DNA of 64,000 bases from Pseudodonghicola xiamenensis DSM 18339 (GTDB lineage Bacteria; Pseudomonadota; Alphaproteobacteria; Rhodobacterales; Rhodobacteraceae), in the NCBI RefSeq assembly GCF_000429365.1, contig NZ_AUBS01000016.1, positions 1 to 64,000 on the forward strand, in the 5' to 3' direction. This document shows, one piece after another, positions 41,648 through 50,229 of the stretch. The notes beneath the pieces were generated by a model. That model saw nothing but the letters and a program-made list of their open reading frames with translations, was not told where the DNA came from and did not search any database. A program made the translations under genes and the position numbers. Position 1 is the first letter of the stretch. The number at the start of each line of letters is the position of its first letter.

Positions 41648-42751
41648 ATGAAAGCAATCGGCTCTCCCGCATGGACGCTTTTCGCCCCGCTTCTGGGGCT
41701 GGGAACCGTCGGAGTTCTCGAGACAGTCTATCACGATCACCCGCCCGCGGCGCTCTATCTGATTTCCGCCGCCGTCCTGTTCGGCTCGGTCTTCGCGGCA
41801 GTGCACCATGCCGAGGTCATCGCCCACCGCATCGGACAACCCTTCGGATCGGTTCTTCTCGCCCTTGCGGTGACGCTGATCGAAGTCTCGCTGATCGTAT
41901 CGGTTTTGTTCTCGGACAGTTCCGGCGACAGCAGCGTGGCCCGCGATACGGTTTTCGCGGCGATCATGATCGTGCTGAACGGGATCGTCGGGCTTTGCCT
42001 TCTGATTGGCGGGCTGCGCTATCATGAGCAGGGATTTCAGCCACGCGGCACCGCTGCGGCGCTGGGTGTTCTGGGAACCCAGGCGGTTCTGGGCCTGATC
42101 CTGCCCAATTATACCGAGGCGATCCCCGGCCCGGTCTATGCTCCGGAACAGCTCATCTTCGTCGCCGTGTTCTCGCTTCTGCTCTATCTGCTCTTTCTCT
42201 TCGTGCAGATGGTGTCGCACCAAAGTGATTTTCTCGAACCGATCGAACTGTCCCGGCCCCCTGCCACCGAGCCGGAGAGACATCACGAGGTTTCGAGGCC
42301 CACATTGATTGTCTCGGCGATCGCCCTGCCCGTCTCTCTTGTCGCGGTTGTCCTGCTGGCCGAGGCATTGGCCGCGCCGGTCCGCCATGCGATCTTGGGT
42401 GCCGGGCTGCCCGAGGCCCTGGTCGGGGTCGTCATCGCCTTGATCGTACTGCTGCCCGAGGGGCTCGCCTCGGTGAAGGCGGCGATGCAGAATCGGTTGC
42501 AAACCAGTCTGAACCTGGCAATGGGATCCGCACTGGCCAGCCTGTGCCTGACAATCCCCATCGTCGCGCTGGTATCGGTGGCGATGGGTCACACCCTGGT
42601 TCTGGGGCTGGATGCCGAACATATCGTGCTGCTGGTCCTGACCCTGTTCATGAGCACCCTGTCCCTCGCGATGGGACGCACGACCATCATGCAGGGAGGC
42701 ATCCACCTTGTCATTTTCGGCGCTTTTTTGACAATAGCCACGATCCCCTGA
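41648..42751 (+). CDS. chaA: Calcium:proton antiporter (ChaA family)
   Basis: 367 aa, eleven or so hydrophobic helices. CaCA-superfamily alpha repeats: ALAVTLIEVSLIVSVLFSD near residue 77 and VLLPEGLASVKAAMQNR near 273, each with the conserved Glu that binds cations in the membrane centre. Family members exchange Ca2+ or Na+ for H+. A 54-base gap leads to the glutamate-receptor-like gene, same strand, suggesting a joint transcript and a role in cation homeostasis. Confidence 0.9.
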   Translation: MKAIGSPAWTLFAPLLGLGTVGVLETVYHDHPPAALYLISAAVLFGSVFAAVHHAEVIAHRIGQPFGSVLLALAVTLIEVSLIVSVLFSDSSGDSSVARDTVFAAIMIVLNGIVGLCLLIGGLRYHEQGFQPRGTAAALGVLGTQAVLGLILPNYTEAIPGPVYAPEQLIFVAVFSLLLYLLFLFVQMVSHQSDFLEPIELSRPPATEPERHHEVSRPTLIVSAIALPVSLVAVVLLAEALAAPVRHAILGAGLPEALVGVVIALIVLLPEGLASVKAAMQNRLQTSLNLAMGSALASLCLTIPIVALVSVAMGHTLVLGLDAEHIVLLVLTLFMSTLSLAMGRTTIMQGGIHLVIFGAFLTIATIP

Positions 42752-42805
42752 CCCAGGCTGTCGCATCTCCGTTTGCCCACAGATCTATTTACAAGGACAG
42801 TTTCC

Positions 42806-43915
42806 ATGATCCCTCTCGAGCGCCCCACAGGATATCGAAAGAGCGTCTTGTGTTTCCTCTCCCTGACAGTCCTCGCGCTGATCAACTGGGGGGGCATGGT
42901 GCATGCCCAGCAATCCAAGCCTCTGACCGTCGCGGTGCATGAAAGCCCGCCGTTCGTCATCCTCTCGGACGGCGTCTATTCGGGCCTGGCAATAGATCTC
43001 TGGGAGACCGTGGCAACGGAACTCGGCTATGAGTTCACCTATCAGGAATACGATACCGTCCGCAGCATGATCGACGCGACTGCGGCGGGCAATGCCGATG
43101 TCGCCGTCAGCAATCTGACCGTCACCGAGGAACGGGCGGCGCGGGTGGATTTCACCCAGCCCTGGTACGATTCCGGCCTGCGCATCATGGTCAATGACAG
43201 TTCCGGCGCCAGTTTCTGGAGCATTTTCACCGGCCTCAGGGATTCCGGTTTTCTGCGCGCTTACGGCTGGCTCGCCTTCGCGATCCTCGTCGCCTCGCTC
43301 TGCTTCACCCTGTTCGACCGGAAATTCGACAAGGATTTTCCGAAAAGTTTCCGCAACGGTTTCGCTGAAAGCTTCTATACCGTCATGACGGTGGCCACCT
43401 CGGGCAAGCCTCCGAAACGCAAGAACCTGTTCGGATGGCTCGGGCGGATGTGGCAAGGCCTGTGGCTGGTCTTCGGCGTTATCGTCGTGGCCTTCGTAAC
43501 CTCGACCATCACCAGCGTCATGACCACCCTGTCCATCAAGAACGATATCCGCAGCGTGTCGGATCTGCCCGGGCTGAACGTGGCGGTGGCGGACGGTAGC
43601 ACCGCCGAGGGCTTCGCCATGAACAACGGGTTCGACCTGACCGCCTACCCCAATATCAACGCATCTGCGCAGGCGCTTCTGGATGAAGAAGTTGATGCCA
43701 TCATCGGCGACAAGCCGGTGCTGGAATATTACGCCCACACTCACCCTGACGAACCGCTCACTGTGGTCGGCGCCGTTTTCAACCCCGAGAAATACGGCTT
43801 TGCCCTGCCCCCGGGCAGCCCGTTGCGACGCGATATCACGATTGAAGTCGTCGGTGCGCGGGAAGACGGCACATTGCGCGCTCTGTCCGAGGAATATTTC
43901 GGCCTCAACCCATGA
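42806..43915 (+). CDS. Prokaryotic ionotropic glutamate receptor-like ligand-gated channel
   Basis: 369 aa from ATG 42806 with AAGGA eight bases before. Signal peptide (about 1-35), then the split periplasmic-binding domain: lobe S1 at about 38-130 (TVAVHESPPFVI, TEERAARVDFTQPWY with ligand-binding Arg region), helix M1 (about 153-170, YGWLAFAILVASLCF), re-entrant pore (185-200, YTVMTVATSG), M2 (about 210-240) and lobe S2 at about 250-369 (LNVAVADGSTAEGF). This is the GluR0 plan. The pore lacks the K+-channel TVGYG filter, so selectivity differs. Ligand is unknown, perhaps an amino acid. Lies between chaA and a pentapeptide protein. Confidence 0.9.
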   Translation: MIPLERPTGYRKSVLCFLSLTVLALINWGGMVHAQQSKPLTVAVHESPPFVILSDGVYSGLAIDLWETVATELGYEFTYQEYDTVRSMIDATAAGNADVAVSNLTVTEERAARVDFTQPWYDSGLRIMVNDSSGASFWSIFTGLRDSGFLRAYGWLAFAILVASLCFTLFDRKFDKDFPKSFRNGFAESFYTVMTVATSGKPPKRKNLFGWLGRMWQGLWLVFGVIVVAFVTSTITSVMTTLSIKNDIRSVSDLPGLNVAVADGSTAEGFAMNNGFDLTAYPNINASAQALLDEEVDAIIGDKPVLEYYAHTHPDEPLTVVGAVFNPEKYGFALPPGSPLRRDITIEVVGAREDGTLRALSEEYFGLNP

Positions 43916-44122
43916 TCCTGCGCCCGGAGCAGATTGCAACCGCATCCGGGCAGTCCAGGACAGGACGATGCATCGCAATCACCGGGGCGGATCACAGCCC
44001 CGGCCATGTGAAGGTTCTTCTTGCTCCCCCCCTTGAAACGGCCCGCGCAAATCAGATGTAACAGGCCGGTGCGGAGGCAGAATTCCCGCCCCCGCGTCGG
44101 CCATTGTATCAAGGGATCCCAA

Positions 44123-44584
44123 ATGCAAATTCACCGCTCTCAAACTGGCCGGAAAGCCGCGTTCCTGACGGCGGCGCTGTTCGCTTCCTGCATCCCCGCC
44201 CTCGCTGAAAGCGAGGATCGCAGCCGGGTGAGGATGATGGGGAATTGCAAGGAATGCTCTCTCTCGGATCAGGACTTTGCCCGCGGAAAGCTGACCGGTA
44301 TCGACTTCACCGGGGCGGCTCTACAGCGCACCAGATTTGATAGCGCCCGTCTGAGTATCTCGATCTTCTCGCGGGCCGATCTGACTGATGTCTCATTTGA
44401 AAACGCCGATCTGACAGGCGCCAGTTTCGTCGGGAGCCGATTGAAAAACGTTTCGTTTTCCGGAGCTAATCTGACCGGAGCGGTGTTCGAAGGCGCCAGC
44501 CTCGAAGGGACCACGCTGGAGGGTGCCATCCGGTGCAACACCCAGATGGCCGACGACACCATGGATAATTCGGACTGCAGATAG
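44123..44584 (+). CDS. Secreted pentapeptide-repeat protein
   Basis: 153 aa from ATG 44123; AAGGGA is nine bases upstream. Signal peptide to about residue 27 (ALFASCIPALAESED), a short Cys-containing region (GNCKECSLS), then about 16 pentapeptide A(D/N)LxX repeats (e.g. LSDQDFARGKLTGIDFTG, SADLTGASFVGSRL) forming a right-handed quadrilateral beta-helix, and a C-terminal RCNTQMADDTMDNSDC. The two end cysteines may cap the helix. Start 207 bases after the channel gene. Function of exported members unknown. Confidence 0.85.
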   Translation: MQIHRSQTGRKAAFLTAALFASCIPALAESEDRSRVRMMGNCKECSLSDQDFARGKLTGIDFTGAALQRTRFDSARLSISIFSRADLTDVSFENADLTGASFVGSRLKNVSFSGANLTGAVFEGASLEGTTLEGAIRCNTQMADDTMDNSDCR

Positions 44585-44610: not shown

Positions 44611-45903
44611 TCAGAACCGCTCCAGCCGATAGGGGGACGGGTCGACCAGCGGCTCTGCGCCGGAGACCAGATCGGCGGCAAGCTGTCCCGCCGCCGGCCC
44701 GGTTCCGAACCCATGCCCCGAAAACCCCGTGGCCAGCGTCAGCCCCGGCATCGAGGCCACCGGCCCGATCACCGGCAGGGAATCCGGCGTGATATCCATG
44801 GTGCCGGCCCAGGCCTCGACAATGCGGGCGTTGGCAAAGGCCGGCCAGGCGGCCGAGAGATTTTCCATAGCTTCCCGGTTCAGCGCTGGCAGCGTCGGGG
44901 GATCCATCACCCGCAGCTTTTCAAACGGCGAGACCTGCTTGCCCGACCAGCGCCGCGCCAGACGCAGATCGGTCAGGCTCTGGCGGTTCAGCGTAATGCG
45001 CAGCAGGCCGCGCTGATCGCGCAGAAGATGCATGTACCGCCGACCGACCAGCAGGTGATCCAGCACCAGCGGGCTGGACAGCGCACCGCGCTGGGTGACG
45101 ATGAAACCGCCGTCGATATGCTTGCGGAACGAGAAATCCGGCCCGCCCACCGCGATATCCGTCGGCCCCTCCATCGGGGCGGTGCGAAAGACCGAACAGG
45201 TCAGTGGCAGGATCGGCAGGCCGATGCCAAGATTGCCCAGAAAGCGGCGCGACCACAGGCCGCCGGCCAATAGCACCTGATCGCAGGCGATCTCGCCACG
45301 CTCCGTGACCACGCCGCTGATCCGTCCGGCGCTGGTCTGCACCGTCCGCACCGCACAATGTTCGACGATGACCGCACCTTTTTCCTGTGCCGCTGCGGCA
45401 ATGGCGCTGGTGGCCAGGGTCGGCTCTGCCCGCCCGTCCGAGGGCGTGAAGAGACCGCCGGCCCAACGCCCCTGCCCGCCCGGAACAGATCGGTCGATCT
45501 GCGCCGGCGACAACAGGCGCGCATCCAGTCCCAGCGCCTCGACCGAAGCGAGCCAGGCCCGATGCACCTCCATCTCGGCCTCGCTCCGGGCCAGGAACAT
45601 GATCCCCGCCTGCCGATAGCCCACCGTCCTGCCAATGCGCGCCGGCAGATCGGCCCAAAGCCGGTCCGCCGCCTGCGCCATCGGTACATCCGCCGCCCCG
45701 CGCGATGTCTTGCGCACCCAGCCTAGATTGCGCGAACTTTGTTCCGCCGCGATACGGCCCTTTTCCAGCAGCACGACGGGTATGCCGCGTTCCGCCAGCG
45801 TCAGGGCGGCGGTCACCCCGACGATACCGCCGCCGATCACCACCACCTGGCAGCGCGCGGGTATCTCCTGCGACGTCTCGACCGGCTCTATCCGCGGTGC
45901 CAT
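44611..45903 (-). CDS. FAD-dependent oxidoreductase (DAO family)
   Basis: 430 aa. Rossmann FAD motif VVVIGGGIVGVTAALTLAER near residue 20, the ELGERG-like KGRIAAEQSSRNLGWVRKTSR region of the DAO family that supports covalent or tight FAD binding, and C-terminal TPDSLPVIGPV with ATGFSGHGFGTGPAAG. It oxidises amines or amino acids to imines in the cytosol or at the inner membrane. Members such as glycine oxidase or D-amino-acid dehydrogenase have this layout. Substrate undetermined. Follows the RidA gene by 23 bases. Confidence 0.85.
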   Translation of the reverse strand: MAPRIEPVETSQEIPARCQVVVIGGGIVGVTAALTLAERGIPVVLLEKGRIAAEQSSRNLGWVRKTSRGAADVPMAQAADRLWADLPARIGRTVGYRQAGIMFLARSEAEMEVHRAWLASVEALGLDARLLSPAQIDRSVPGGQGRWAGGLFTPSDGRAEPTLATSAIAAAAQEKGAVIVEHCAVRTVQTSAGRISGVVTERGEIACDQVLLAGGLWSRRFLGNLGIGLPILPLTCSVFRTAPMEGPTDIAVGGPDFSFRKHIDGGFIVTQRGALSSPLVLDHLLVGRRYMHLLRDQRGLLRITLNRQSLTDLRLARRWSGKQVSPFEKLRVMDPPTLPALNREAMENLSAAWPAFANARIVEAWAGTMDITPDSLPVIGPVASMPGLTLATGFSGHGFGTGPAAGQLAADLVSGAEPLVDPSPYRLERF

Positions 45904-45926
45904 GGCTCGATCCTCCTTTGAAAGTG

Positions 45927-46349
45927 TCAGACCGAAATGGTCTTGCGCTCGACATCGGCATCGGCGGCGCCCCGGAAGGCAGTCACCTCGATCTCGACCT
46001 TGTATATCGTCGAGCCCAGCGGCGGACAGGTGACCGTTGCGGTCGGGTCGATACCGCGGAACTTCTGCCCCACCGTGGTCATCACCGTTTCGGTATCCGT
46101 CGGATCCTGGATGAAGATGCGACTGGCCACCACATCGGCCAGGCTGCTGCCCACCGCCCCGAGGGCACTTTCGATATTGGCGAAGACCTGCAGCGTCTGC
46201 TCGGTCACATCTTCGGGGATTTCCTTGGTCTCGGGATTGCGCCCGGCGGTGTTGGACACGAAGATCCAGTTATCCACCGCAACCAGGCGGGAGTAGCTGG
46301 CGTGATCCTCGAATTTCGATCCGGTCTTGAGCTTGATGATTTTCGTCAT
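45927..46349 (-). CDS. RidA/YjgF family imine deaminase-like protein
   Basis: 140 aa. Rid-family motifs: WIFVSNTAGRNPETKE and EDVTEQTLQVFANIESALGAVGSSLADVVASR, and the ATVTCPPLGSTIYKVEIEVTA region near the C-terminus. RidA proteins hydrolyse reactive enamine or imine products; the usual active-site Arg at the position of Arg105 in RidA is not obvious here, with Thr-Cys-Pro-Pro instead, suggesting a Rid4-7 type. It probably clears the imine made by the adjoining FAD oxidase. Confidence 0.85.
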   Translation of the reverse strand: MTKIIKLKTGSKFEDHASYSRLVAVDNWIFVSNTAGRNPETKEIPEDVTEQTLQVFANIESALGAVGSSLADVVASRIFIQDPTDTETVMTTVGQKFRGIDPTATVTCPPLGSTIYKVEIEVTAFRGAADADVERKTISV

Positions 46350-46440
46350 GATCTGTCCTGTGTTCGGATGGCCGCGATCTGGGCGGCCCAGTGTCGGGGA
46401 AACGGCCCCGGGCGCAGGTCCAGGGCCTTGGGGGACGGGG

Positions 46441-47589
46441 TCAGCGCAGCGCCGGCTCTTTCCACAGGTTCAGCTTGACGCCGATGCCCTTCTCGATGGC
46501 ATTGCGATAGATGACGGTGCCCCAGGCGACATCCTCCACCGGCATGCCACCGACCGACATCAGCACGATCTCGTCGTCCGAACGCCGCCCCGGAGCCGCT
46601 CCCGCGACGATGGCGCCCAGATCCTCCAACGCATCGGGCGACATCGCGCCTGCGGCGATCATGTCCATGAACTTGACACCGACCAGCGGGATCACCTCGT
46701 GCGCGGGTTTCGGGACCTCTTCGTACCAGGCTTCGTAAAGGCCAGTGTTGTCAAGCACCTTGCGGATCTCGGGCGCCTCCATCCCGGCGTCGAAATTGCA
46801 CGGCGCGGGCATCGCCAGAAAGGCGCCCGGCTTGACCCATTCCCGCTTGACCAGAGGGTAGTCCGCCGGGTTCCCCACCTCGCCCGAGGCGCAATAGGTC
46901 ACGATATCGCTGTCACGCACCACCGCTTCAATGTCGTCCACGATCTCGATCCTGCTCACCTGCGGATAACTCTCCTTCACCCAGGCGATAAAGACATCGA
47001 GACTGCGCTGACCGCGCCCCTTCACCTTGACCGTGTCGATATTCGGGCAGGCAGCGATAAAGGCCGCCAGTGCGGTACGCGCCATGACGCCCGGCCCAAA
47101 GATGCCAACAACGCGGGAATCCTTGCGGGCCAGATACCGCGCCCCGACACCGGGCACCGCGCCGGTCCGATAGGCCGACAGAAGGTTGGCCGACATGAAG
47201 GCCAGCGGCGCGCCGGTATCGGCATCGTTCAGCACGAAGGTCAGGATCGACCGCGGCAGCCCCTTTTCCCGGTTGGCGATATTCGATCCGTACCACTTCA
47301 CCCCGGCGGTGCAGAAATTGCCGCCCAGATAGGCCGGCATCGCCATGAACCGACGGTCGGCGGTGGGTTTCGGCATGGTGGGGAATGGCGAATTTTCGGG
47401 AAAGGTCACCATGGCGCCATGGCTGTCGCTGTTTGCCCCGGCCATGCGGTAATCGCCGTGGTGCAGCAGCGCGAACATCTCTTCCATGCAGTCGACGCAG
47501 GCCGGCATGTCGGTGACGCCGGCACGGATCATGTCCTCTTCCGACAGGTAGATGAAATCAATCTTTGGCAGATCGGGCAGATCGGTCAT
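46441..47589 (-). CDS. Ornithine cyclodeaminase/mu-crystallin family protein (tyramine oxidase subunit B-like)
   Basis: 382 aa. NAD(P)-binding OCD/mu-crystallin fold: IYLSEEDMIRAGVTDMPAC at the start, RFMAMPAYLGGNFCTAGVKWY with the substrate-binding Lys region, and VVGIFGPGVMARTALAAFIA as Rossmann motif. The C-terminal block SDDEIVLMSVGGMPVEDVAW is typical. Longer than bona fide OCD (about 320-340) and similar to proteins annotated tyramine oxidase subunit B. May reduce a ketimine or form a complex with the adjoining oxidase. Confidence 0.8.
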   Translation of the reverse strand: MTDLPDLPKIDFIYLSEEDMIRAGVTDMPACVDCMEEMFALLHHGDYRMAGANSDSHGAMVTFPENSPFPTMPKPTADRRFMAMPAYLGGNFCTAGVKWYGSNIANREKGLPRSILTFVLNDADTGAPLAFMSANLLSAYRTGAVPGVGARYLARKDSRVVGIFGPGVMARTALAAFIAACPNIDTVKVKGRGQRSLDVFIAWVKESYPQVSRIEIVDDIEAVVRDSDIVTYCASGEVGNPADYPLVKREWVKPGAFLAMPAPCNFDAGMEAPEIRKVLDNTGLYEAWYEEVPKPAHEVIPLVGVKFMDMIAAGAMSPDALEDLGAIVAGAAPGRRSDDEIVLMSVGGMPVEDVAWGTVIYRNAIEKGIGVKLNLWKEPALR

Positions 47590-47631
47590 GTGTGGTATCC
47601 TCTTGTTGAAGCGATTGGGAAAGGGCCGGGA

Positions 47632-49062
47632 TCAGTCGAGACTGCGGCCGAGATTGACGTAAAGCGCCGGGTCGCGCCGCCGGATGCCAAGCGCCAGCAG
47701 CGCGCCGACCAGTCCGACGGCCACCACCAGCACCGGGAAGGCCCGCACGATCAGCCTGTCACTGCCCGTCAGAAGCGAGATATTGGCGCCCACCAGAACG
47801 AAGGCCGCCCCCAGCCCAAGCGTCGCCAGGGCCGGCGCGACCAGAACCACCAGCCCCGAGCGTGCATGCGGCTGGTGGCGGAAAAACCGGATGACAGAGA
47901 CCGAGACCAGGACCTGCGTGCCCAGGATCGCTAGCACGGCAAGCCCCGCCATCCACGAGAACACCACCGTATAGGGATCTGCCTGCCCCAGCGCGAAACC
48001 GCCCAGGATCAGCGCCACCAGCACCGCCTGCACCAGCCCCGCCACATGCGGCGAACCGTGTTCTGGATGCACCCGTCCCATTGCGCGCCAGGCCAGGCTT
48101 TCGCAGGCCAGGGTATAGAAATAACGGTTCAGAGTGTTGTGAAAGGACAGCAGGCAGGCGAACAGGCTGGTCAACAGCAGCAGGTTCATCACCTGCACCG
48201 ACCAGGGCCCCAACAGCTCTGCCGCGGCGTTGAAATAGAACCCCTCGAGCGAGGCGCTTGCCGCCTCGCGCACGGTGGACGGCCCATAATATTGCGAGAT
48301 CGCCCAAGTGGAGAGGGCATAGAAGACGGTGATCAGCAAGACCGCGACATAGGTGGCGCGCGGGATGGTCCGATGCGGCTGGTGCGCCTCCTCGGCAAAG
48401 ATCGCGGTGGCCTCGAAGCCGACATAGGCACCCAGCACGAAGACCATGCTGACCCCCAGCCCCGGACCGAAGACATCGGCGGGACGGAACCCGGCCAGGC
48501 TCAGCCCCTCCGGGCCGCCGCCATGCAGCAGGATCGCCACATCCAGAAGCAGCAGGATCAGCAGCTCTGCCACCATGCAGGCTCCGAGGATACGGCCCGA
48601 GATGGCAATATTGCGCCGTCCGAGGACCACCACTGCCGCCAGCGCTGCCAGCGCCCAGATCCACCAGGGCAGATCGACACCCAGAGGCGCCAGAGTGGCC
48701 GATGTGAAGACCGCGAACAGCGCATAGATACCAAGCTGAATCGCAAAATAGGCCACCAGCGCCATCAATGCGCCGGCGATCCCGGCGGCGCCTCCGAGCC
48801 CGCGGGAGATATAGCTGAAGAAACCACCCGCGCCCGAGATATGGGGCGTCATCGCCGTATATCCCACCGAGAACAGCAGATAGAGCGCCCCGGCCAGCAC
48901 GAAGGCTCCCGGCACGCCGGCACCGTTGCCGAAGGCAAAGGCCGGAGGCGTCGCCCCCACCACCGCCGTCATCGGCGCGGCTGCCGCCACCACAAAGAAA
49001 ACAATATGAGTAAGGCCTATGGAATTCCCCTGGAGTCGGCTCTCGCCAGTCATGTCGGTCAT
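47632..49062 (-). CDS. APC superfamily amino acid/polyamine permease
   Basis: 476 aa from ATG 49062 (MTDMTGESRLQGNSIGL), chosen since the frame beyond has random composition. Twelve helices with the APC motif GATPPAFAFGNGAGVPGAF near residue 40, GAGGFFSYISRGLGG near 80 and the conserved GAYVGFEATAIFAEEAHQP near 215. Sodium- or proton-coupled uptake. First gene of the minus-strand amine cluster, so its product likely imports the oxidase substrate. Confidence 0.88.
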   Translation of the reverse strand: MTDMTGESRLQGNSIGLTHIVFFVVAAAAPMTAVVGATPPAFAFGNGAGVPGAFVLAGALYLLFSVGYTAMTPHISGAGGFFSYISRGLGGAAGIAGALMALVAYFAIQLGIYALFAVFTSATLAPLGVDLPWWIWALAALAAVVVLGRRNIAISGRILGACMVAELLILLLLDVAILLHGGGPEGLSLAGFRPADVFGPGLGVSMVFVLGAYVGFEATAIFAEEAHQPHRTIPRATYVAVLLITVFYALSTWAISQYYGPSTVREAASASLEGFYFNAAAELLGPWSVQVMNLLLLTSLFACLLSFHNTLNRYFYTLACESLAWRAMGRVHPEHGSPHVAGLVQAVLVALILGGFALGQADPYTVVFSWMAGLAVLAILGTQVLVSVSVIRFFRHQPHARSGLVVLVAPALATLGLGAAFVLVGANISLLTGSDRLIVRAFPVLVVAVGLVGALLALGIRRRDPALYVNLGRSLD

Positions 49063-49197
49063 TGCGCGCCCCTGTTGCACATTTGTTATGGATGGAATCC
49101 TGTTAGCGCGGCGGACCACCTGCAGGACCATTGCAGCCCACGCCATGAATCCGATAGTCTGCGCCAAATGGCGTTTACAAACGGGGAGCCATGCAAA

Positions 49198-50229
49198 ATG
49201 TCGACGCCCGGGGCACCGCTGCCGAAATTGCTGTCTGTCAGAGCGGTAATTCTTAGGCCCATTTTCGAGGCCTTTGCCGATGATTTGAGCGGCTTGAAAA
49301 TCTTGTTGCACCGTCACGGCCTTGATTCGCGGCTTCTGGAAGACCATTACGCCCCGGTTCCGCTGCAATCCTACCTGGCGCTATTCGAGGATGCGGCCAC
49401 CCATTTGGGCGACCCGGGCCTGGGGCTCAGACTGGGATCGCGGCTGCGTCCCGGTGGGCTTGGCCCGATGGGGCTGCGGGCAGCGCAATGCGCCACCATC
49501 CGCCGCGGGCTGGAAAGCCTGGCCCGTTTTTCCTCGGCGCTGCAAAGCGGCACCCAGGTCAGCCTGGAAGAGGACGGCCCGCATCTGATCCTGCGCTACA
49601 TGCTCACCGCACCGCAGATCGGCACCAGCCGTCAGGACAGCGAATTCTCGCTCGCCGGCATGTGCAGCCTGATCCGCAAGGGGTTCGACCTGCGCTGGCG
49701 CCCGGACGAGGTGCATTTCACCCATCCCGCCCCGGAGGTTCCGAACGAGGCGGAGCACTGGTTCGATGCGCCGGTGCTCTATTCCCAGCCGGTCAACATG
49801 CTGGTCATCGACGCGCAGGATGCAGACCGGATCCATCGCAGCGAAGATCCCGACATGCTCGACCTGATCGACCATCACCTTGCCGGCCTGTTCGAAGAAG
49901 CCCATCGCGATCACTCGACCGGTGACCAGGTCCGGGCGCTGATCGCCCTCTACCTCGGGGCCCGTCCCATCGACCTGACCACGATCTCGGGCCTGCTGCA
50001 GACCTCGCCCCGCAGTCTGCAGCGCCACCTGGCCGAGGAGGGCGAAACCCTGAGCGGGCTGTTGCAGGCCTATCGCCAGGAGCGGGCCGAACTGCTGCTG
50101 CGCGATGGGAGATCAAGCGTCGAGGCAATCGCCATCTCACTGGGCTATGCCGATGGCACCGCCTTCTGGCGCGCCTATCGCGGCTGGACCGGCCAGAGCC
50201 CGAGCCAGGCCAAGGATGCCCCCCGATAG
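49198..50229 (+). CDS. AraC family transcriptional regulator (OruR/ArgR-like)
   Basis: 343 aa from ATG 49198 with GGGGAG nine bases upstream (49183-49188); an ATG at 49168 is a less likely start. N-terminal arabinose-type ligand domain of about 190 residues, then the AraC DNA-binding domain with two helix-turn-helices: LQTSPRSLQRHLAEEGETL and VEAIAISLGYADGTAFWRAY followed by WTGQSPS. Divergent from the permease gene across 135 bases, so it is the presumed activator of the amine cluster. Confidence 0.9.
   Translation: MSTPGAPLPKLLSVRAVILRPIFEAFADDLSGLKILLHRHGLDSRLLEDHYAPVPLQSYLALFEDAATHLGDPGLGLRLGSRLRPGGLGPMGLRAAQCATIRRGLESLARFSSALQSGTQVSLEEDGPHLILRYMLTAPQIGTSRQDSEFSLAGMCSLIRKGFDLRWRPDEVHFTHPAPEVPNEAEHWFDAPVLYSQPVNMLVIDAQDADRIHRSEDPDMLDLIDHHLAGLFEEAHRDHSTGDQVRALIALYLGARPIDLTTISGLLQTSPRSLQRHLAEEGETLSGLLQAYRQERAELLLRDGRSSVEAIAISLGYADGTAFWRAYRGWTGQSPSQAKDAPR

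Follow-up and report, generated by a model that had tools for sequence, protein, structure and literature searches.

An ionotropic glutamate receptor (iGluR)-like gene of the marine-type bacterium Pseudodonghicola xiamenensis lies directly behind a gene for a cation/H+ antiporter, which raises the question of whether the two genes belong together and, if so, which ions such a unit would serve. A sequence-only reading of this locus had joined three neighbouring genes into one block, and had proposed that ligand-triggered cation entry through the channel was coupled to removal by the antiporter, as a possible calcium-signalling module. The window referred to below is the whole stretch of DNA that was analysed, 64,000 nucleotides of contig NZ_AUBS01000016.1.

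The gene row and the antiporter

On the + strand of the window, a ChaA/Y4hA-type cation/H+ antiporter of the CaCA family (41648-42751, 367 aa) is followed by an exported, prokaryotic-type iGluR-like channel subunit (ATG 42806 to stop 43915, 369 aa) and an exported pentapeptide-repeat protein (ATG 44123 to 44584, 153 aa); 54 nt separate the first two genes and 207 nt the last two. The sequence-only reading had given the three genes, their position and both gaps correctly. AAGGA/AAGGGA ribosome-binding-like stretches are present upstream of all three starts, and the chaA-iGluR junction (42752-42805, +, 54 nt) holds such an AAGGA and no terminator-like hairpin. Counts of terminators and promoters at the locus were near the shuffled expectation, and an Rfam search of the locus matched no riboswitch or other known RNA. 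It is probable that chaA and the iGluR-like gene share one operon and one message.

The third gene does not appear to be part of this unit. Its product has a signal-like N-terminus and matches Pfam Pentapeptide with an E value of 7e-22. No relative was found in the two other loci where the pair occurs (L002 and L004, see below) or among the surveyed channel loci, and the nearest relative, 41% identical and the best in 61 genomes, belongs to a genome without a channel homologue (G036). The gene was ruled out as a member on these grounds and, judged by comparative gene content, is incidental to the pair, so that the single block of three genes is reduced to two. On the opposite strand, a run of genes for a DAO-type oxidase, a RidA-like protein, an ornithine-cyclodeaminase-family protein (PRK06199) and an amino-acid permease (44611-49368, -) constitutes an amine/amino-acid catabolic cluster adjoining the channel.

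The antiporter matches Pfam Na_Ca_ex with an E value of 1.6e-26 and scored 231 bits against caca2 and 198 bits against ChaA, both under the curated cut-offs; for the ChaA equivalog (NCBIfam NF007895) the score was 197.8 bits against a cut-off of 505. The Na_Ca_ex repeats and the Glu of both alpha-repeat motifs (VTLIEVSLI and LLPEGLASVKAAMQNRLQ), present in 25/25 aligned homologues, place it in the CaCA superfamily, and it shares the CaCA fold and these motifs with E. coli ChaA and rhizobial Y4hA. It is ~49-55% identical to plasmid proteins annotated "ionic transporter y4hA" and by sequence is nearest in name to ChaA/Y4hA; no Y4hA operon containing a channel was found in this analysis. One description of E. 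coli ChaA makes it a Na+/H+ antiporter that also shows Ca2+/H+ activity (PMC514712), and another places it in monovalent cation/H+ exchange under alkaline conditions (PMC3668916). Since ChaA also exchanges Na+ and K+, the Ca2+ specificity that had been assigned to the antiporter could not be upheld. Another CaCA exchanger is encoded elsewhere in the same genome (C2:127850-128797).

The channel and its pore

The channel matches Pfam SBP_bac_3 (2.4e-24), Lig_chan-Glu_bd (2.2e-11) and, at 30.7 bits and just under the cut-off of 30.8, Lig_chan (3.2e-7), with the SBP_bac_3 match interrupted by the Lig_chan region. Two ligand-core halves thus surround two transmembrane helices and a P-loop in the S1-M1-P-M2-S2 order. 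An AlphaFold2 model, run on nine homologues, has a mean pLDDT of 72.9, with the ligand core mostly at ~80-93 and the membrane part at ~50-60, and places a signal helix at residues 11-28, S1 at 40-131, M1 at 149-174, the pore helix at 180-199, M2 at 211-245 and S2 at 246-369. The signal peptide, as predicted from sequence inspection and the model helix, comprises residues 1-34 and ends in MVHA (42806-42907, +). Alignment to GlnH, NpGluR0 and GluR0 places the S1 half at 42923-43198 (+) with Arg110 at 43133-43135, and alignment together with the model places the S2 half at 43541-43912 (+) with Asp302 at 43709-43711. Between them lie M1 (43250-43327, +; low confidence, pLDDT ~60), the pore helix ending in T198-S199 (43343-43402, +), the filter with a cytoplasmic basic stretch, S-G-K-P-P-K-R-K-N (43400-43426, +), and M2 (43436-43540, +), which aligns with the M3/SYTANLAAF gate region of animal receptors (AFVTSTITSVMTT).

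The best solved relative is the Nostoc GluR0 ligand core (2pyy, 6e-37), with GlnH also matched and the animal and plant receptors lower in the list. The ligand core of the model superposed on NpGluR0 2pyy with Z 30.5 and an rmsd of 1.3 A over 212 residues (VIA-align), and on 1ii5 with Z 29.8, while over the full-length chain Foldseek gave matches to AMPA, delta and NMDA receptors and the end of M2 aligned with the M3 gate of GluD2. Arg110 and Asp302 are kept in all displayed sequences of the alignment. In the iGluR family these residues hold the amino-acid backbone (the alpha-carboxylate and alpha-amino groups), and since both are kept, the channel is likely to bind an L-alpha-amino acid or an analogue of one. 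An alignable pore helix, a SYTANLAAF-like gate helix and the ligand core are shared with GluA2, GluN2B, GluD2 and GLR3.4; unlike the animal and plant receptors, however, the window channel has no amino-terminal domain and no M4, carries Ser in place of Q/R/N and lacks the +4 acid. With Synechocystis GluR0 and Nostoc NpGluR0 it shares the ligand core fold and the inverted P-loop topology. GluR0 is a K+ channel, whereas the window protein has TVATSGKPP where the TVGYG filter would align, and the sequence-only reading was right in setting it apart from GluR0-type (Ger et al. Group 1) channels.

The pore string TVMTVATSG occupies residues 192-200. Ser199 was placed on the Q/R/N site of animal receptors by MAFFT, HHalign and phmmer, the last by direct alignment to GluN2B, in which it falls on the first Asn of FNNS. 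Thr198 was also considered for this site and was set aside once residues had been counted from the start of the pore helix and HHalign applied; the register could be one off, with Thr198 instead of Ser199 at the site. With that uncertainty of one residue, the Gln or Asn of Ca2+-permeable iGluRs is absent from the window channel. Across its clade (n=17), the equivalent residue is Ser in 12, Ala in 2, Thr in 2 and Asn in 1, and Gly200 (17/17), Lys/Arg201 (17/17), Arg205 (16/17) and Lys206 (17/17) are nearly or fully invariant. The filter contains no acidic residue, and the invariant basic residue two places past Ser199 would be unusual at the filter mouth of a cation channel. In a placozoan receptor, Ser at the Q/R/N site gives low selectivity among monovalent cations and reduced Ca2+ permeation, and when the +4 acid is lost, the main effect is that polyamine block disappears, with ion permeation almost unchanged (PMC12226733). 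By this analogy, the pore points to a non-selective channel with low Ca2+ permeation, and the Ca2+ entry on which the earlier proposal depended is not what these residues would predict.

A survey of 94 non-redundant iGluR-type proteins revealed at least three filter classes. The window channel belongs to class A (n=17), a distinct clade of prokaryotic iGluRs without a K+ filter (support 100/100) with the consensus S-F-Y-x-V-M-x-[VI]-A-T-S-G-[KR]-x(2,3)-R-K-N-L-F-G-W. Class B has F-W-W-A-L-N-L-V-V-N-G-G-F-E-E-R-x-P-R and numbers 60 by a simple motif rule that leaves 14 of the 94 unassigned, and the K+ type (n=3; L146, L153, L091) has T-V-G-Y-G-D. Class B, with Asn at the Q/R/N site, has an AMPA-like pore; in an alignment spanning the pore, its Asn falls on the Q/R site of GluA2, and MAFFT and HHalign both place Ser199 of class A on this Asn. 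Class A members are found in Rhodobacterales and Hyphomicrobiales, and many are plasmid-borne. A 40%-identical class A relative was also observed on Salmonella plasmids near transposase genes (L088 on pCFSAN024579, and hits H15-H18); on the Salmonella plasmid NC_019125 the match spans two annotated features.

Conservation and possible role of the pair

The chaA-iGluR adjacency was found in three genera, namely that of the window, Rhodobacteraceae F11138 (L002) and Chachezhania (L004), and the spacing stays at about 55 nt or less while the flanking genes have changed. Both proteins are ~70% identical between the window and L002/L004. In both genes 49-55% of third codon positions differ as against 12-29% of first and second positions, a pattern of purifying selection on each of them, so the linkage has been preserved over substantial divergence. 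Directly after the pair, L002 and L004 carry a CBS-MgtE gene (an MgtE-type Mg2+ channel), with FUSC further on and, in L002, HlyD in between. The window genome has no such mgtE orthologue, its only relative of the gene, located elsewhere, being 33% identical.

The pairing is nevertheless narrow. A profile search over the ORFs of the 94 iGluR-type loci, which reaches the window's type of antiporter and not every CaCA protein, detected the antiporter at only three (window, L002 and L004). It is missing beside 14 of the 17 class A members, so the channel can do without it, and F11138 itself has a second class A gene without an antiporter (L003). In the family sample, which spans 394 genomes from 393 genera, 93 genomes have a full-length relative of the channel (E<1e-30) and 14 have the window antiporter type (E<1e-50), and in wider class and order surveys homologues were rare. 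The tree of antiporter genes places the three that are linked to an iGluR within a clade of five (98/92) with two unlinked genes nested inside, L004 grouping with the unlinked L045/L046 (96/92). Since the linked genes do not form a clade, there was either one old linkage with losses or two gains. These comparisons suggest that the pairing is probably selected, in a lineage-specific manner, and is not a general channel-antiporter module. The co-occurrence in other genomes on which the earlier proposal had been staked therefore extends to two further genera and no further among the loci surveyed; what stands of its coupling is an iGluR without a K+ filter in a probable operon with a CaCA antiporter.

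For the pair we tentatively propose, as a possible rather than a probable role, that an amino-acid-gated, non-K+-selective cation channel and an H+-coupled antiporter work together to maintain ion or osmotic balance. The product of 42806-43915 would be a subunit of a homotetrameric channel of the Ger et al. Group 2 kind, gated by a periplasmic ligand, not selective for K+ and probably translated from the same message as the antiporter. An L-alpha-amino acid or close analogue may bind the periplasmic S1S2 clamshell and open the inverted P-loop pore, which, from the alignment and the published Ser receptor, would pass monovalent cations with little preference and little Ca2+. The antiporter could then draw on the proton gradient to restore the Na+/K+ (and Ca2+) balance, and the pair may in this way serve ion, salt or osmotic homeostasis, with the mgtE-type gene completing the cluster in two sister genera. 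The one studied role found for a prokaryotic receptor is likewise homeostatic: Synechocystis GluR0 takes part in the response of cell volume to KCl upshock (PMC13099474).

Ion balance appears likelier than calcium signalling because the pore resembles that of a low-Ca2+, K+-unselective channel. A calcium-signalling module, in which ligand binding would open a pore permeable to Ca2+ and the antiporter would return cytosolic Ca2+ to its earlier level, would fit the adjacency conserved across three genera, the Ca2+/H+ exchangers among CaCA-family antiporters and the presence of another divalent-cation gene, mgtE, in the sister cluster. However, the receptor studied is less permeable to Ca2+ with Ser at the Q/R/N-equivalent site (PMC12226733), the filter has an invariant Lys/Arg and no acid, ChaA also moves Na+ and K+, the genome contains the other CaCA exchanger, and most class A members have no antiporter, so that this module is poorly supported and quite improbable. 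The same basic filter mouth could mean that the channel passes no cations and is anion-permeable or a non-conducting amino-acid sensor. Gly200, Lys/Arg201 and the Arg-Lys at 205-206 are conserved in 16-17 of 17 members and the loop is devoid of acid; the basic loop, though, is explicable by the positive-inside rule, and the gate and pore helices are conserved as in cation iGluRs, which makes this unlikely.

The adjacency may instead be a matter of lineage history only, the channel gene having arrived together with a cation-transport cluster (chaA-mgtE-HlyD-FUSC), or been inserted into one, and acting independently of its neighbour. One genome (G215) has chaA-mgtE with FUSC and no channel, and a genome of the window's own genus (G001) lacks both genes; an empty-site comparison with it found no syntenic DNA. 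Elsewhere, class A genes lie, often on plasmids, beside mdtN-FUSC-TolC efflux genes (Roseibium), RND (Paracoccus), MFS (Agrobacterium), LysR and CYTH-CHAD (Rhizobiaceae) or LtrA (two genomes of the window's family). Against this, two genes as uncommon as these (in 14 and 93 of 394 genomes) have stayed close together in three genera, and the window retains the pair though mgtE has gone; we consider an adjacency by lineage history only somewhat unlikely. It is a long shot that the pair is a selected operon acting as a bacterial electrical or ionic signalling unit, in which the clade filter, with Ser at Q/R/N, Gly and the invariant Lys/Arg, would have a selectivity new among iGluRs, possibly monovalent-only or anionic.

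Relation to known prokaryotic receptors

Descriptions of prokaryotic iGluRs that lack a K+ filter go back to 2010 (PMC2950845). With its iGluR topology, no K+ filter and no ABC-transporter permease domain, the window channel falls in Group 2 of Ger et al., and Group 2 shares with it the S1-TM-P-TM-S2 plan, Arg in S1 and Asp in S2. The description of Group 2 gives no shared filter motif and, in its available part, no gene context, whereas class A, compared with Group 2 by description, is a separate clade with an invariant G-[KR] filter end and a K-x-x-F-G stretch, paired in one lineage with an antiporter. The class A filter signature with antiporter linkage, a ChaA/MgtE operon with an iGluR, and Rhodobacteraceae iGluRs were not found in the accessible portion of the open-licence literature searched. 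For prokaryotic iGluRs, the one physiological role found there belongs to GluR0 (2026), which is K+-selective. A clade that lacks the K+ filter, and that combines a defined filter signature with conservation of an antiporter partner, offers a test of the roles of amino-acid-gated non-K+ channels in bacteria, and class A also bears on how the iGluR filter diversified.

Other gene neighbours recur at iGluR-type loci. At 37 of the 60 class B loci, against 1 of the 34 other loci, a gene for a ~360-aa Hint_2-domain protein lies just upstream on the same strand (L064, L068, L103, L108, L112, L122 and others), and to our knowledge no function has been ascribed to this pairing. By the same test, no Hint_2 neighbour accompanies the class B paralogue of the window genome (L071, G000:C3:164775-165776). 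A gene of the linear amide C-N hydrolase/choloylglycine-hydrolase family lies downstream of the channel, directly or a few genes on, in two different genera (L003, 6319-7413; L080, from 10886). At L007, L008, L010 and L101, channels with the filter VVTNASFTIFTP are followed after 72-78 nt by a same-strand gene of 407 aa.
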